Shown: positions 12,866-62,946 of the stretch, in pieces | Numbering within the stretch: the stretch's first letter is position 1 | Layout of the letters: each line of letters opens with the position of its first letter | Assembly: GCA_029821755.1 (NCBI GenBank) | Contig: JALGSV010000014.1 | Location: 1 to 64,000, forward strand | Direction of reading: 5' to 3' | DNA length: 64,000 nucleotides | Origin: Candidatus Zipacnadum vermilionense | GTDB lineage: Bacteria; Armatimonadota; Zipacnadia; Zipacnadales; Zipacnadaceae | The notes under the pieces: model-generated | What the model saw: only the letters and a program-made list of their open reading frames with translations | Database searches by the model: none | What the model was told of the DNA's origin: nothing | Program-made: the position numbers and the translations under genes

Positions 12866-12888
12866 GGATCTACCCCGCCCGCGGCGGC

Positions 12889-12927
12889 CTCACCCCCTGC
12901 CCCCTCTCCTGGCAGGAGAGGGGGTAG
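12889..12927. repeat. Family D palindrome
   Basis: The sequence reads CACCCCCTGCCCCCTCTCCT then GGCAGGAGAGGGGGTAG, a GC-rich hairpin in the gap before fchA. A second copy with the same arms lies inside the GT39 gene at 61895-61933. Confidence 0.75.
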
Positions 12928-12949
12928 CAGAGCCGGCAAGGAGATTGAG

Positions 12950-52381: not shown

Positions 52382-53779
52382 TCAGGCCAGGGCGTCAACC
52401 ACCAGCCCGACCGCGCGTTTCGCCAAGCGATCCGCTTCCTCCTCGGTGTCGGCCTCGGCCATGACGCGGATGATGGGCTCGGTGTTGCTGGGGCGGAGGT
52501 GGAGCCAGGCCCCGCGGGGCCAGGTGATGCGCAGGCCCTCGGTCTCGTCGAGTTGGCCCTCCCCGGCGAAGGCCTGGCGCAAGGCCAGTTGCACCCGCTG
52601 CACCCGCGCCGCCGGGCACGGCACCTTGAGCTTGGCCATGTAGGAGGGCGGGTAGCTCCCGGCCCACTCCGAGAGCGTCTGCTCGCGCCGGGCCAGGCCC
52701 TCCAGGATCAGGCACATCCCTCGGTGCGAATCGCGGCAGTAATGCAGCCGCGGGTCGATCACCCCGCCGTTGCCTTCTCCGCCGAAGACGCGGGCAGCGT
52801 GGCCCCCGCGCTCCCAGGCACTAGCGGCGGATTGCATCATCTCCACCACGTTGATTTCCCCCACCTTGGCGCGATAGACCGGGCAGCCCCAGCGCCGGCC
52901 CACCTCCTCCAGCAGGCGTGAGGCGGAGAGGTTAGTCACCAGCGGCAACGGCTCCCGGGAGGCGACCACTTCCGCCGTCATCGGCACGGTGAACTCCTCG
53001 CTGAGGGCCACGCCCTGCTCCGTCACCAGACACAGACGGTCGGCGTCGGCGTCCTGGGCGAAGCCCACGTCAGCCCCGTGCGCCCGGACGGCCTCCGCCA
53101 GGCCCCCCAGGTTGGCCGGCACCGGCTCCGGCGGCCGGGCGAAGTGCCCGGTCGGCTCCCCGTTGAGCACAACCACCTCACACCCCAGCGCCTCCAGCAG
53201 GTCCGGCGCGAGCTGGGTCCCGGCCCCGTTGCAGCAATCCAGCACCACCTTGAAACGCCGGGAGCGAATCAGGTCCGCGTCGGTGTGCTCCAGCAGCAGC
53301 CGCAGGTGTCGGGCGCAGGCTCCGCCGTCGTGGGCGACCCCACCGATCTCGTCGTTGTCGACCAGAGTGAAGTCGCCCTGGTGGTAGACATCGAGCAACT
53401 CCTCGGCCTGGTAGGGGTAAAAGAAGATGCCGTCAGCGCGGATGAACTTGAGGGCGTTCCACTCCTGGGGATTGTGGCTGGCGGTAATGGCGATGCCGCC
53501 GTCCCAGTGCTCGTCACGGGCGATGGCGATCTGCAGCGTCGGCACGGGGACGATGCCCAGGTCGATAACCGAGCACCCCGCCGCCAGCAGCGCCCCGATG
53601 AGCGTCTCACGGATCATCTCCCCACTAGGCCGAGTATCGCGCCCAATCGCCACCCGCCCCCGGTCGAGGTAGGTCCCAAAGGCCTGCCCAAAGGCGGAGA
53701 CCAGCCGAGGCGTGAAGGACTCCCCCACCACGCCGCGGACGCCGGAGATGCCGGTTTTGAGAGTCTGGATAGAGGGCAT
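52382..53779 (-). CDS. Phosphoglucosamine/phosphomanno-mutase family enzyme
   Basis: The 465-residue alpha-D-phosphohexomutase has all catalytic sites: phosphoserine loop TASHNPQEW (Ser101), metal loop QDADADR, sugar loop GEGNGG and phosphate-binding RPSNTEP. It interconverts 1- and 6-phosphates of glucosamine, mannose or glucose. It precedes the URO-D-family and NeuB-fusion genes on the same strand, so it may supply amino-sugar precursors. Its Shine-Dalgarno (GTAGGTG) lies in the terminal box of the adjacent foldback element F1. A paralog without the catalytic Ser lies on the other side of the element pair. Confidence 0.92.
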   Translation of the reverse strand: MPSIQTLKTGISGVRGVVGESFTPRLVSAFGQAFGTYLDRGRVAIGRDTRPSGEMIRETLIGALLAAGCSVIDLGIVPVPTLQIAIARDEHWDGGIAITASHNPQEWNALKFIRADGIFFYPYQAEELLDVYHQGDFTLVDNDEIGGVAHDGGACARHLRLLLEHTDADLIRSRRFKVVLDCCNGAGTQLAPDLLEALGCEVVVLNGEPTGHFARPPEPVPANLGGLAEAVRAHGADVGFAQDADADRLCLVTEQGVALSEEFTVPMTAEVVASREPLPLVTNLSASRLLEEVGRRWGCPVYRAKVGEINVVEMMQSAASAWERGGHAARVFGGEGNGGVIDPRLHYCRDSHRGMCLILEGLARREQTLSEWAGSYPPSYMAKLKVPCPAARVQRVQLALRQAFAGEGQLDETEGLRITWPRGAWLHLRPSNTEPIIRVMAEADTEEEADRLAKRAVGLVVDALA

Positions 53780-53785
53780 GGTTCA

Positions 53786-54085
53786 CCTACCCCCCCGGCG
53801 ACTTCGTCGCCGGTACCCCTCCCCTGCGGGGAGGGGCGATAGGAAATCGGGTTTCGGGAATGGCAAATCTGGTTTCGGAAATGAGAAAGGGGTTTCAGAG
53901 AACAGAAATCGGGTTCCTGAGATCGGGAATGGGTCGGAACGTGAGAGACCTCCCCCGCACAGAAGGGACACGCGTCCCTACCTATTTCCTAGCTTCCTAC
54001 CCGATTTCTCCTTTCCGGACCCGATTGTTTCATCGCCCCTCCCCGCCAGGGGAGGGGTGCCGCGCGGAACGCGCGGCGGGGTAGG
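53786..54085. repeat. Foldback element family F, copy 1 (300 bp)
   Basis: Terminal inverted repeats of about 54 bp: an outer box CCTACCCC, a private hairpin (GGCGACTTCGTCGCC left; GCGCGGAACGCGC right), and an inner palindrome CCCCTCCCCTGCGGGGAGGGG. The middle contains degenerate A/G-rich direct repeats of the type AAATCGGGTTTCGGGAATG. The element starts 7 bp from the phosphomutase start codon and includes the last 36 codons of the DUF559 gene. Confidence 0.85.
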
Positions 54086-54451
54086 CGACTCCGCCACCGC
54101 CCAGATTTCGTTCACCACCCCTGTGATATCCCCCAACACACGCTCGTTCCTGAACCGCAACACGCGTAGCCCCAACTGCGTCAGTACCTGGTCCCGCTCT
54201 GCGTCATACTCCTGCTGTCCGTCGTGGACATCGCCGTCCACCTCCACTACCAGCCGGCAGGCGTGGCAATAGAAGTCCACGATGAAGCCTCGAATCACCT
54301 GCTGGCGCCGGAAGTGCAGCCCGTTCAGCCGGTTGGACTTGAGCTTAAGCCACAGGCGTGCCTCCGCGGGCGTCATGGCCCGGCGCAGGCGTTGCGCCTG
54401 TTCCAGTTTGCCGGAGGCATGAGGGCCGGTGACCAGGCCTCGTTCGCGCAT
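53978..54451 (-). CDS. DUF559 (very-short-patch-repair-like) endonuclease-domain protein
   Basis: The 157-residue protein matches DUF559: RLRRAMTPAEARLWLKLKS, GLHFRRQQVIRGFIVDFYC, RLVVEVDGDVHDGQQEYD and VLRFRNERVLGD. This is a restriction-endonuclease-like (Vsr/MutH-type) fold with the D-(x)n-E-x-D residues present. The body ends near residue 120; the last 35 or so residues (PPRVPRGTPPLAGRG and onward) are encoded by the adjacent foldback element. The gene lies alone between two F elements in the gap between two phosphomutases. AGGAG lies 8 bp before the start. It may be the enzymatic part of a small mobile unit, but this is speculation. Confidence 0.88.
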   Translation of the reverse strand: MRERGLVTGPHASGKLEQAQRLRRAMTPAEARLWLKLKSNRLNGLHFRRQQVIRGFIVDFYCHACRLVVEVDGDVHDGQQEYDAERDQVLTQLGLRVLRFRNERVLGDITGVVNEIWAVAESPTPPRVPRGTPPLAGRGDETIGSGKEKSGRKLGNR

Positions 54452-54471
54452 GGACGGCTCCTACTGGGTCT

Positions 54472-54761
54472 CCTACCCCACCGCTCACTCCGTGAGCGGC
54501 ACCCCTCCCCTGGCGGGGAGGGGCTAAGGACAAATGGCGTTTCGGAGATCGGCAAGCAATGGGTCTCGCACGTAGAAAACAGATTCCCCGCAGCCGTGCA
54601 GGGATCGAGCGGCGAGAGACTTCCCCCTCGCGTGCGCCCGAAGAAGCCGCCTCCTTACCGCTTTCCCCTCTTCCTACCCGATCTCCCCTCTCCCTACCCC
54701 CTTTGTGCCTCGCCCCTCCCCGCAGGGGAGGAGTGCCCGAGCTCCGCGAGGGCGGGGTAGG
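54472..54761. repeat. Foldback element family F, copy 2 (290 bp)
   Basis: It has the same layout as copy 1: outer box CCTACCCC, hairpin CCGCTCACTCCGTGAGCGG on the left and CGAGCTCCGCGAG on the right, inner palindrome CCCCTCCCCTGGCGGGGAGGGG. The interior shares GAGAGACTTCCCCC and TTCCTACCCGAT with copy 1. It ends 4 bp from the stop codon of the second phosphomutase and 20 bp from the DUF559 start. Confidence 0.85.
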
Positions 54762-54765
54762 TGAC

Positions 54766-56127
54766 TCACACCGCTCTCCTCACCTTCGTCACGTACTCCC
54801 GCATCAGTTCCTCCGTGACTTCCTTTTCCTTCGACTCCGCGATTACCCTCACGACCGGCTCGGTCTGGCTCACGCGGATGTGCACCCACCGGCCCGGGCC
54901 GCGCAGGAGCAGGCCGTCCTCCAGGTTGCGCGCGTCGGCCCAGGCGGGGAGGGGCTCCTCGCGCAGGCGCTGGAGCACGGAGTAGCTGCGTTCCGCCGGA
55001 CAAACTACCTCCGCCTTCTCCATCGCATACTGCGGGAGGTTCTGGGCCACGAACTCGCACAACGGCGTGTCGACCTGCGCCAGCAGGTCCAGGATATGCG
55101 CCATCGCCGCCAGGCTGTCGCGGGCGAAGTTCAGGCGTGGGAAGACGATCCCGCCGGAGCCCTCCCCGGCAATCGCCGCGCCGTAGTTGAGCGCCGCCTC
55201 CGTGATGTAGGCCTGGCCGATGCCGGTGCGGTACACCGGACGGCCGTAGGGGGCGGCGATCTCCTCGATGGCCATGCTGGTGGAGAGGTTGGTTACTACC
55301 GGCCCGGGGTCGCCTCGGCGCAGGATCATCTCCGCGCACAGACCCAGCGTGGCCTCCTCGCCCGGGATGCCGCCGGTCTCGCAGACCGTGCCCAGCCGGT
55401 CGCCGTCGGCGTCGTGCGCGAAACCTACGTCCGCCTCCGCCGCCCGCACCAGCGCCCGCAACTGCCCCAGATTCTCCGCCGTCGGCTGCGGAGGATGGGG
55501 GAAGGGCAACTCCGGCTCGTTGTTGATCGCCACCACCCGGCAGCCCAGCGCCTCCAGCAGGCGCGGGGAGTACTCCGAACAGGCCCCGTTAGCGCAATCG
55601 ACCGCCACCGTGAAGCCGCAGGCGGCAATGCGTTCTTGGTCCACCTGCGCCAGCACCGCTTGCAGGTGCCGCTCGCCGGCGCTGGGGTCGGCAGCCAGAG
55701 GCTGCAGCTGGTCCCACTGCGCGGCCTGGTAAACGCCCAGGTGGTAGAGGTCCAGCAGTTCCTCGCTCTGGCGAGGGTTGAGGAAGATGCCGTCGTCGCG
55801 GATGAACTTGAGCGCATTCCAGCGGGCGTTGTTATGCCCGGCGGTGACGGCGATGCCCCCCGCGGCGGCACTTTGCTTGACCGCAAGCTGCAAGGCCGCG
55901 GTGGGCACCACCCCCAGGTCCACCACGGCGCAGCCGGCGCTCATCAGCCCCGCCCGCACCGAGGCAGCCACCATGAGCCCCGAGCGCCGAGTGTCGCGGC
56001 TCAACAGCACCCGTTCGCCGTCGAGATAAGTCCCGAAGGCCTCGCCAAAGCCCACCAGGAGATCAGGAGTAAGCGTCTCCCCGATCACCCCGCGGACGCC
56101 GGAAAGCGAGAGTTTTAGGGCGCGCAT
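54766..56127 (-). CDS. Phosphohexomutase paralog lacking the catalytic serine
   Basis: The 453-residue protein is collinear with the phosphomutase at 52382 and keeps the metal loop HDADGDR, but the phosphoserine loop reads TAGHNNARW (Gly97 where Ser is required). The sugar loop is GEGSGG and the phosphate loop VSQTEP instead of PSNTEP. So three of four active-site loops are altered. It may be a regulatory or binding partner of its paralog, or have a changed reaction. ATG 56127 gives the family N terminus (LSLSGVRGVIGE); upstream codons would read through a family B repeat. Confidence 0.85.
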   Translation of the reverse strand: MRALKLSLSGVRGVIGETLTPDLLVGFGEAFGTYLDGERVLLSRDTRRSGLMVAASVRAGLMSAGCAVVDLGVVPTAALQLAVKQSAAAGGIAVTAGHNNARWNALKFIRDDGIFLNPRQSEELLDLYHLGVYQAAQWDQLQPLAADPSAGERHLQAVLAQVDQERIAACGFTVAVDCANGACSEYSPRLLEALGCRVVAINNEPELPFPHPPQPTAENLGQLRALVRAAEADVGFAHDADGDRLGTVCETGGIPGEEATLGLCAEMILRRGDPGPVVTNLSTSMAIEEIAAPYGRPVYRTGIGQAYITEAALNYGAAIAGEGSGGIVFPRLNFARDSLAAMAHILDLLAQVDTPLCEFVAQNLPQYAMEKAEVVCPAERSYSVLQRLREEPLPAWADARNLEDGLLLRGPGRWVHIRVSQTEPVVRVIAESKEKEVTEELMREYVTKVRRAV

Positions 56128-56140
56128 GGTATGACTCTTT

Positions 56141-56233
56141 CCGTCCGCGTGGGGCGGGCGTTCTAGCCCGCCCTTCCGAGGGGTTACCGCTCCCCTGCGC
56201 GGGCTGGAAAGCCCGCGCCACGCGGAGAGACGG
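56141..56233. repeat. Family B inverted-repeat pair
   Basis: TCCGTCCGCGTGGGGCGGGCG-TTCTAGCCCGCC faces GCGGGCTGGAAAGCCCGCGCCACGCGGAGAGACGGA. It lies between the GHMP kinase stop and the phosphomutase start, together with a family C unit at 56272-56301. Confidence 0.8.
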
Positions 56234-56271
56234 AAACCTCCCCGTAACATCCTCGCGTTAGAATGTCCCCA

Positions 56272-61215: not shown

Positions 61216-62946
61216 CTACTCCACCCCTTTCCGGTACCCCACCGGCTGGCAGGGGGGCGGGTTGGTCGCGGGCCGGGTCAGGTCGAAGACCTCGTAGGCC
61301 TCGCCCTCCCCCAGCAGCACGCGGCGGTAGGTGGTGCGCAGGTAGGTCTCCAGGTCGTCCCGCCCGCCCGGCCCGGTGGAGGCAAAGTAGACCGCCCAGC
61401 GCGCCCCGCGGGCAATGCGATTGGTAACGTACAGCGAGCCGGGGAGGTCCTCCGGCCGGGTCTCGGCCGGTGACCGGCCCATCGCCTCCCGCCCCACCCA
61501 GCCGGGGCGATGGAAGTAGTACAGGCAGCCGTAGCCGGGCGGAAAGATGATCACCGGCTTCCCGGCGGGGTCCAGGCGGTCCAGGGCGGCGGAGGCCTGC
61601 AGGATGGGCGTGTAAGGCTCGAAGAAAGGCTGCACTCCCCAGGCGCACAGGACCAGGAAGAGTGCCACGAGTACGCCATTGGACCAGCGGTTCACCACGC
61701 GCGACTGAATCAACCGATCCCAGGCCAGCCCGATCAACCCCGCCGCCGGCAGGAGCAGGGGCAGCTGGTAGTAGGTCTGGCGCAAATTCCCCCCGGAGAC
61801 CAGCACGAAGTAGAGCAGGACCACCCCCAGCCAGACGTGGAAGAGGTAGGGAGCCTCTCCGCTGCAGGGCGCGGGCTCGTACCGCGCCCTCGGAGGCTCA
61901 CCCCCTGCCCCCTCTTCTTGCAGGAGAGGGGGTGCCGATACCCCTTCCGGTGGCACCGGCGTCTCGCCGGTGCGGGGTGGAGAGCGCCGTAGCAAGAATC
62001 CCACCGCCAGCAGCACCATTCCCACGGCGGTCAGATGATCCTTCAGCAACCGCTGCAACATCAGAGAGTAGTTCCCGGGCCGCAGGAAGTCCTTAGCGGC
62101 CAGCCACATCCCCCCGCCGAAACCCACGCCGACGGTGAAGTAATGGGCACCGATGGCTTGCTGGGCGTGCCAGTAATAGACCAGCGCCGGTCCCAGCGTC
62201 AGCACCAGCAGCGCCCAGACCGCCGGGCGCCGCAGGAAACCCCAGCCCCACTTATCCCAGGCCAGGTAGGCCAGAGGCAGCAGCAGCATGACGGTGGGGA
62301 GCTTGACCAGAAAGGCCAGCGCACCGCAGAGGGCGGTGAGGAAGAACCAGAGGGCGGCCCTCCCGGTAGGACGGGCGTCTCGCCCGTCCCCGCCGACGAC
62401 GGGCGAGACGCCGGTCGTACCCAACCATCTCCCAAAGCAATACACCACTGCCACCGAGAAGAACAGCATCAGCGACTCGCTCATCAGGGCGCGGGAGTAG
62501 TACCAACTGGAGGGCGCAAAGGCGTAGAACAGCAGGCCCCAGAAGGCCGGGCGCTCGCCCAGGTACCGCGCGAGCAGCCGCCACAACAGCAGCATCGTCC
62601 CCAGGCTGAAGGCCACCGTCACCAGCCGCCCTACCCACTCGTGCATACCGAAGAGCTTGTACAGCAGGGCGGTCAGGAAGGTGACAAGCTGGAACTCGAT
62701 CTCGATGTAGCCGGGCTGGTCGGCGCTGTAGTCGGTCTCCGGCCATAGGAGGTTGTACCCGTGCAGGTAGAAGTTCTTGGCGACAGGCGCGACCTGGAGC
62801 TGCTTGATCCAGTGGCCGTCAATGTAAGGGGCGTTGAAGCCAATCAGCCGCACCGCTACGGCCAGCAGCAGGATGAGGAAAACGACCTGCCGCCGTGGGA
62901 GGCGGGAAGCGGACGCGCCGGGAGAGGTGGGAGCATCAGCAGCCAT
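61216..62946 (-). CDS. GT39/ArnT-like membrane glycosyltransferase with repeat-encoded loops
   Basis: The 576-residue protein has about 10-12 membrane segments and the PMT/ArnT pattern (RLIGFNAPYIDGHW near the start, LLWRLLARYLGERPAFWGLL). Such enzymes use polyprenyl-phosphate sugars to glycosylate lipids or proteins at the membrane. Two loops between membrane helices are encoded by dispersed palindromes: residues about 175-194 (TTGVSPVVGGDGRDARPTGR) and about 322-365 (TGETPVPPEG followed by LLQEEGAGGEPPRA). These inserts are absent from normal members, as far as I recall. The frame stays open in both. It overlaps no gene but is coupled to the oxidoreductase downstream. Confidence 0.85.
   Translation of the reverse strand: MAADAPTSPGASASRLPRRQVVFLILLLAVAVRLIGFNAPYIDGHWIKQLQVAPVAKNFYLHGYNLLWPETDYSADQPGYIEIEFQLVTFLTALLYKLFGMHEWVGRLVTVAFSLGTMLLLWRLLARYLGERPAFWGLLFYAFAPSSWYYSRALMSESLMLFFSVAVVYCFGRWLGTTGVSPVVGGDGRDARPTGRAALWFFLTALCGALAFLVKLPTVMLLLPLAYLAWDKWGWGFLRRPAVWALLVLTLGPALVYYWHAQQAIGAHYFTVGVGFGGGMWLAAKDFLRPGNYSLMLQRLLKDHLTAVGMVLLAVGFLLRRSPPRTGETPVPPEGVSAPPLLQEEGAGGEPPRARYEPAPCSGEAPYLFHVWLGVVLLYFVLVSGGNLRQTYYQLPLLLPAAGLIGLAWDRLIQSRVVNRWSNGVLVALFLVLCAWGVQPFFEPYTPILQASAALDRLDPAGKPVIIFPPGYGCLYYFHRPGWVGREAMGRSPAETRPEDLPGSLYVTNRIARGARWAVYFASTGPGGRDDLETYLRTTYRRVLLGEGEAYEVFDLTRPATNPPPCQPVGYRKGVE
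61895..61980. repeat. Family D and family C repeats inside the GT39 gene
   Basis: CACCCCCTGCCCCCTCTTCT with GCAGGAGAGGGGGTG (family D) and GGTGGCACCGGCGTCTCGCC (family C) are read in frame on the minus strand. They account for the loop of about 44 extra residues. Confidence 0.85.
62364..62422. repeat. Family C repeat pair inside the GT39 gene
   Basis: ACGGGCGTCTCGCCCGTCCC faces GACGGGCGAGACGCCGGTCGT across six bases. The 59-bp unit is translated into an insert of about 20 residues between two membrane helices. Confidence 0.85.

Follow-up and report, generated by a model that had tools for sequence, protein, structure and literature searches.

DUF559 nuclease genes are flanked by BoxC-type repeats across bacteria and may form a mobile repeat system with them

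Background

The BoxC, PIT and TMECO repeats, whose ability to form intrastrand triplexes in vitro was shown for E. coli TMECO (PMC4666352), are part of a large population of such structures, with 988,588 potential triplexes of all classes counted in 5,246 genomes and plasmids (PMC4666352). TMECO is present in 23 copies in E. coli MG1655, in 29 copies in strain 55989 and in one copy in IHE3034; the authors found no mobility function associated with BoxC, left its origin unanswered, and did not mention the gene ycjD (PMC4666352). The latter, conserved in phylogroups A, B1 and C and elsewhere having eefRABCD in its place (PMC12817139), codes for a protein earlier assigned to the PD-(D/E)XK superfamily, its Vsr-like fold being known (PMC1189080). 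Another DUF559 protein, VsrA from Caulobacter, has been tied to DNA damage in cells lacking a cytosine methyltransferase (PMC12907096). In REP/REPIN-RAYT systems, palindromic repeats surround a single gene coding for a HUH/Y1 transposase (PMC3116915, PMC2817692).

Few short repeats in bacteria are as widespread as those of the BoxC/triplex type. We know of no report tying DUF559 to BoxC, and a search of the open-access literature, with subscription papers and preprints outside its range, yielded no paper tying DUF559 to repeats. Here, we describe a DUF559 gene enclosed by two such elements, and compare it with DUF559 loci from other bacteria.

Structure of the locus

The window, i.e. the entire 64,000-nt stretch of Candidatus Zipacnadum vermilionense DNA which was analysed, contains two phosphomutase genes on the minus strand, PGM1 (52382..53779) and PGM2 (54766..56250), which flank an inserted block (53780..54765, no strand assigned) composed of a DUF559 gene between two foldback elements, F1 (300 bp, 53786-54085) and F2 (290 bp, 54472-54761). 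Both elements, also without assigned strand, share the tips CCTACCCC/GGGGTAGG, each of their arms contains a private hairpin, and their BoxC-type hairpins are located at 53816-53836 and 54036-54057 in F1, and at 54502-54523 and 54715-54731 in F2. The tip of F1 begins 6 bp ahead of the start codon of PGM1 and that of F2 ends 4 bp short of the PGM2 stop codon (54766), and the whole gap is thus filled, as described in the first-pass annotation of this DNA. Its account of the elements themselves also stands: F1 and F2 are direct copies (75% identity over 81 nt and 74% over 58 nt), and the inner palindrome CCCCTCCCC-N3/4-GGGGAGGGG that it had noted in the arms is found three times in the window, as opposed to none in 100 shuffles, with the palindrome of the fourth F arm carrying one mismatch.

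The private hairpins vary in sequence from arm to arm and keep their pairing. In 16 arms from the window’s genome, their helices pair in 94% of cells, and 25 two-sided changes are seen versus 10±2 in shuffles (0/500), with a covariation score of 0.25 versus 0.08 (0/500), indicating compensatory conservation of structure rather than of sequence. The genome harbors about 14 F-like places, including dispersed gene-free copies. Rfam yielded no match above the gathering score at the F locus, and the known G-quadruplex repeats of Xanthomonas and Nostoc, which are simple heptamer repeats, were ruled out as the identity of F.

Like BoxC, PIT and TMECO, the DUF559 arms comprise a C-rich stem, a loop, a G-rich stem, a three-base loop and a second G-rich stem, with loops of types A (TTA) and B (CCG), and form inverted pairs. 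The succession of C-rich stem, G-rich stem and second G-rich strand is present in the arms of the window and in DUF559 arms across phyla, and TMECO-like sequence adjoins DUF559 in E. coli, Klebsiella and S. meliloti. The window arms, as judged by reading, do not match the TMECO pattern CCCTCNCCCN3-6GGGNGAGGGN3GGGNGAGGG (PMC4666352), using CCCCTCCCC instead, and F elements differ from the described repeats in having the private hairpin inserted ahead of the third strand. Judging from this arrangement of strands, the window repeats probably belong to the BoxC/intrastrand-triplex superfamily.

The gene itself (ORF 53978-54451, minus strand) codes for a 157-aa nuclease of the PD-(D/E)XK, Vsr-like type. 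Its PF04480 domain (E 1.2e-37; 128.5 bits against a curated cut-off of 20.6) occupies positions 54095-54403, between F1 and F2, and its C-terminus is translated from the right arm of F1 (about 53978-54085). A Y1/HUH transposase domain is absent from this gene, in which only DUF559 and a weak MTES_1575 match were found. The acidic and histidine core is kept, with D59, E70, D72 and H76 invariant across 37 proteins, and the protein is under purifying selection, dN/dS being 0.06-0.34 in close pairs, excluding the out-of-frame pair L114/L129. The sequence matches PDB 3hrl with an E-value of 9.4e-21, and the predicted model (pLDDT 75.5) resembles 3hrl from Neisseria gonorrhoeae (TM 0.88 on target), the catalytic domain of the homing endonuclease I-Bth0305I (TM 0.74) and, more weakly, Vsr. 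Arms are also translated in four Nostocaceae loci (L110, L095, L150 and L155), where the DUF559 frame opens upstream of the left repeat arm and reads through it, so that the arm becomes the N-terminus, e.g. the peptide PPSSLAGRGLGGGV in L110. On G000:C61, three DUF559 domain matches (L003, L005, L007) are situated within about 3 kb, two of them in one long frame, and these are possibly decaying or fused copies.

Association of DUF559 genes with repeats

Most DUF559 genes of the window’s family are bracketed by repeats. In the window’s genome, two more of them (L002 and L004) are found inside inverted-repeat elements of other families, and non-coding copies with the ends of the L004 unit (CCTCACCCCCTGCCCCCTCTCCTGGCAGGAGAGGGGG) are present in the window at 12877..12930 (element at 12900) and 61886..61935 (element at 61908), neither with an assigned strand. 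Strong inverted arms surround about half of the 41 DUF559 loci in the phylum, as opposed to 0/20 phosphomutase loci from related genomes. In a set of 76 loci spanning Cyanobacteria, Chloroflexota, Bacteroidota, Acidobacteria and other phyla, 54% exceed the 99th percentile of in-locus control positions, and, with the stricter controls consisting of other genes from the same loci with intergenic DNA on both sides, inverted arms are seen at 51% of DUF559 loci versus 3.5% of control genes (Fisher p 2e-14). A BoxC-type hairpin followed by a third G-rich strand is found within 450 bp upstream in 67 of 72 loci, downstream in 55 of them and on both sides in 52, compared with 25/876 control windows (2.9%). 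Loci from a plasmid collection, which adds Sinorhizobium, Azospirillum, Deinococcus, Sphingobium, Klebsiella, E. coli and Neisseria, have a repeat on one or both sides, the Neisseria gene being accompanied by BoxC-like repeats on both. The flanking which had been pointed out for a single locus is therefore a strong association in its relatives and extends, beyond that first description, to bacteria in general. Both repeats and DUF559 genes are intergenic in their placement, and small solitary genes could simply gather in repeat-rich intergenic DNA; this explanation is contradicted by the 3.5% of other same-locus genes with arms and by the total lack of them around Vsr genes (see below), and can hardly be credited.

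To gauge specificity, we applied the same test in the window’s phylum to RAYT genes, as a positive control for repeat flanking, and to Vsr genes, as a negative control for the fold. Inverted arms were found at 21/39 DUF559, 14/30 RAYT and 0/29 Vsr genes, and a BoxC-like motif on any side at 32/39, 1/30 and 1/29, respectively, with 7/39 DUF559 genes lacking BoxC-like repeats. The Y1 genes of the window’s genome are flanked by other repeats, e.g. CGTGGGGCGGGCTTTCTAGCCCGCCC, and it follows that two separate repeat systems coexist there. Y1/RAYT-like genes with inverted repeats of their own (L191, L193, L194, L207 and L208, e.g. GTAGGGGCGGC and TAGCACAGGCTTCCAAGCCTGTG, distinct from the DUF559 repeats of the same genomes) were observed in this genome and in same-genus relatives. 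The existence of Y1_Tnp genes in the genome, and the cargo-like appearance of DUF559 units between repeats, could suggest that RAYT or another transposase mobilises the elements, with DUF559 as a passenger. We regard this as highly improbable: the RAYT genes here and in related genomes own different repeats, the BoxC-like motif being found at only one of 30, and the same passenger would scarcely recur across phyla unless linked to the repeats.

Vsr-like enzymes suggest yet another role, that of a host repair enzyme which deals with triplex or hairpin structures or mismatches and is kept beside the repeats. Such a role would agree with the known fold (PMC1189080) and with the connection of VsrA to DNA damage without the methyltransferase (PMC12907096). 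A repair gene, however, needs neither two-sided repeats nor a mobile unit, true Vsr genes are flanked in 0/29 cases, and the DUF559 unit moves together with its arms, as described in the next section; we consider the repair role improbable.

Mobility of the unit and its empty sites

The gene and its arms move as a block. In Cyanobacteria, comparisons between species (e.g. L083/L088, L110/L133, L113/L119) revealed gene-plus-arms units which are 87-97% identical over 490-570 bp, with both flanks unrelated. In Trichormus, non-coding elements of this type lie between unrelated flanks at about seven sites, and many other copies share the flanks of another repeat. As such defined-end copies sit at unrelated sites, something must move the non-coding elements. 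No consistent target-site duplication was noticed by eye. The high cyanobacterial copy numbers are partly due to elements residing inside other multicopy repeats, and copy counts from Anabaena azotica were dropped as evidence, since the flanks of the 20 copies read are those of another repeat. A 91-bp Nostocaceae element (L239-L258 and many of L268-L287) is likewise found inside other multicopy repeats with conserved flanks, indicating that one repeat is carried by another.

The cleanest pair of occupied and empty sites comes from the Rhizobiaceae: in Sinorhizobium C101 and K101 an element-DUF559-element block of ~762 bp occupies an operon junction which in Shinella PSBB067 measures 10 bp and contains no repeat, the downstream gene being clearly the same. 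The first-pass annotation had called for a search for empty sites between the mutase genes, and these were also found: most relatives from the same family or order which keep the gene pair and lack the DUF559 gene have a PGM1-PGM2 spacing of 17-325 bp. The exceptions are longer, one measuring 535 bp and the others 1.2-1.3 kb or more with another gene inside, and no DUF559 match is present in the PGM1-PGM2 intergenic spaces of these relatives. In the same-genus relatives G001 and G002, synteny is lost at this locus. In other relatives (L031, L036 and L038), the gap holds an unrelated gene of ~1.2 kb, which by eye resembles one for a right-handed beta-helix protein, and the junction thus accepts different inserts.

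Distribution in genomes

In the phylum, 73% of the 133 DUF559-positive genomes have a strict BoxC-type stem pattern, compared with 32% of the 158 that are DUF559-negative (p 2e-12), and in genera containing both states the stems were more numerous in the positives 14 times and less numerous three times. Several DUF559-negative genomes are nevertheless rich in BoxC-type stems, with up to 385 copies, and constitute the main evidence against a strict dependence on DUF559. The highest number in the phylum, 385, belongs to G224, which is DUF559-negative at the threshold used; another driver, or one since lost, is possibly behind its stems.

The DUF559 gene of E. coli is ycjD (1,351,407-1,351,760 in MG1655, annotated as DUF559), and TMECO no. 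9 (1,351,239-1,351,204) is situated between ycjD and fabI, just 3′ of ycjD. Of the 5,375 E. coli genomes matched, 3,333 contain the gene. Across a selection of 59 genomes, in which repeats per strain were counted as places per record, ycjD-positive strains have 11-28 matching places (median 18) and ycjD-negative strains 2-14 (median 5.5), with a p-value of 3e-10 which overstates the contrast, since few independent gains or losses underlie it.

These distributions bear on the main competing explanation, according to which DUF559 would be a selfish gene resembling a homing endonuclease, with BoxC-type repeats as its landing sites: a gene-free repeat would be cut and the gene copied in by recombination between arms, the repeats themselves being spread by other means. 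The fold is indeed close to that of I-Bth0305I, the gene in L002 and L004 lies inside one element between both arms, as insertion into a repeat predicts, and some genomes have many repeats and no strong DUF559 match. Non-coding elements with defined ends nevertheless occur at unrelated sites, and the Y1 transposases tested are not their owners; moreover, repeats are fewer where DUF559 is absent, which would not be expected from a pure parasite of repeats. On balance, we view homing as unlikely. Since repeat number is lower where DUF559 is absent, we favor a model in which DUF559 is the mobiliser, and find it somewhat probable that the DUF559 gene and its F elements make up a single mobile repeat system, of a type found across bacteria, with the nuclease acting in trans on BoxC-type elements.

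Discussion

Under the mobiliser model, DUF559 would be a solitary nuclease of the Vsr/homing-endonuclease fold that operates in trans on elements in whose arms a C-rich/G-rich hairpin precedes a third G-rich strand, in some cases with a private hairpin between the two. Once the DNA becomes single-stranded, the arms would fold, and DUF559 would recognise and bind this fold, rather than a fixed sequence, nicking or cutting at the tip; repair or replication may then place new copies in intergenic sites, either of the element alone or of the element together with the gene. The earlier proposal of a nuclease-driven repeat unit akin to RAYT/REP is supported by the association and by the empty gap, and the cutting and spreading by DUF559 itself are steps which we infer. 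We put forward more tentatively, as close to an even matter, the broader view that a structure-specific PD-(D/E)XK nuclease, and not a transposase, cuts triplex-folded DNA and so spreads gene-free hairpins, with DUF559 and BoxC forming a pan-bacterial class that was previously unrecognised.

DUF559 is the first gene family to stand as a candidate partner of the BoxC repeats, which are widespread and of unexplained origin, and the presence of ycjD in E. coli makes the question of that origin directly testable in a laboratory strain. If the model is true, a large nuclease family still named a “domain of unknown function” would gain a role, and the REPIN lifestyle would have arisen a second time, independently.

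Among characterised proteins, the EDxHD homing endonuclease I-Bth0305I (PDB 3r3p) and Vsr (1vsr, 1cw0) have a nuclease fold in common with DUF559. Homing endonucleases, however, sit in introns or at single sites, and Vsr repairs mismatches and is devoid of repeat flanks. NGO0050 from N. gonorrhoeae (PDB 3hrl), an uncharacterised endonuclease-like protein, belongs to the same family as DUF559. The closest parallel in organization is the REP/REPIN-RAYT system, which likewise combines a single gene, palindromic repeats on both sides, gene-free copies and inverted pairs. It differs in its enzyme, RAYT being a HUH/Y1 transposase and DUF559 having a PD-(D/E)XK, Vsr-like fold, and in the class of its repeats, both systems being present in the window’s genome with separate ones. 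The likeness to RAYT/REP drawn in the first-pass annotation would accordingly hold for function, and not for the repeats, since the real RAYT genes of this genome own different ones. DUF559 is thus best explained, by analogy, as a putative functional counterpart of RAYT/REPIN built on the unrelated Vsr/homing-endonuclease fold.
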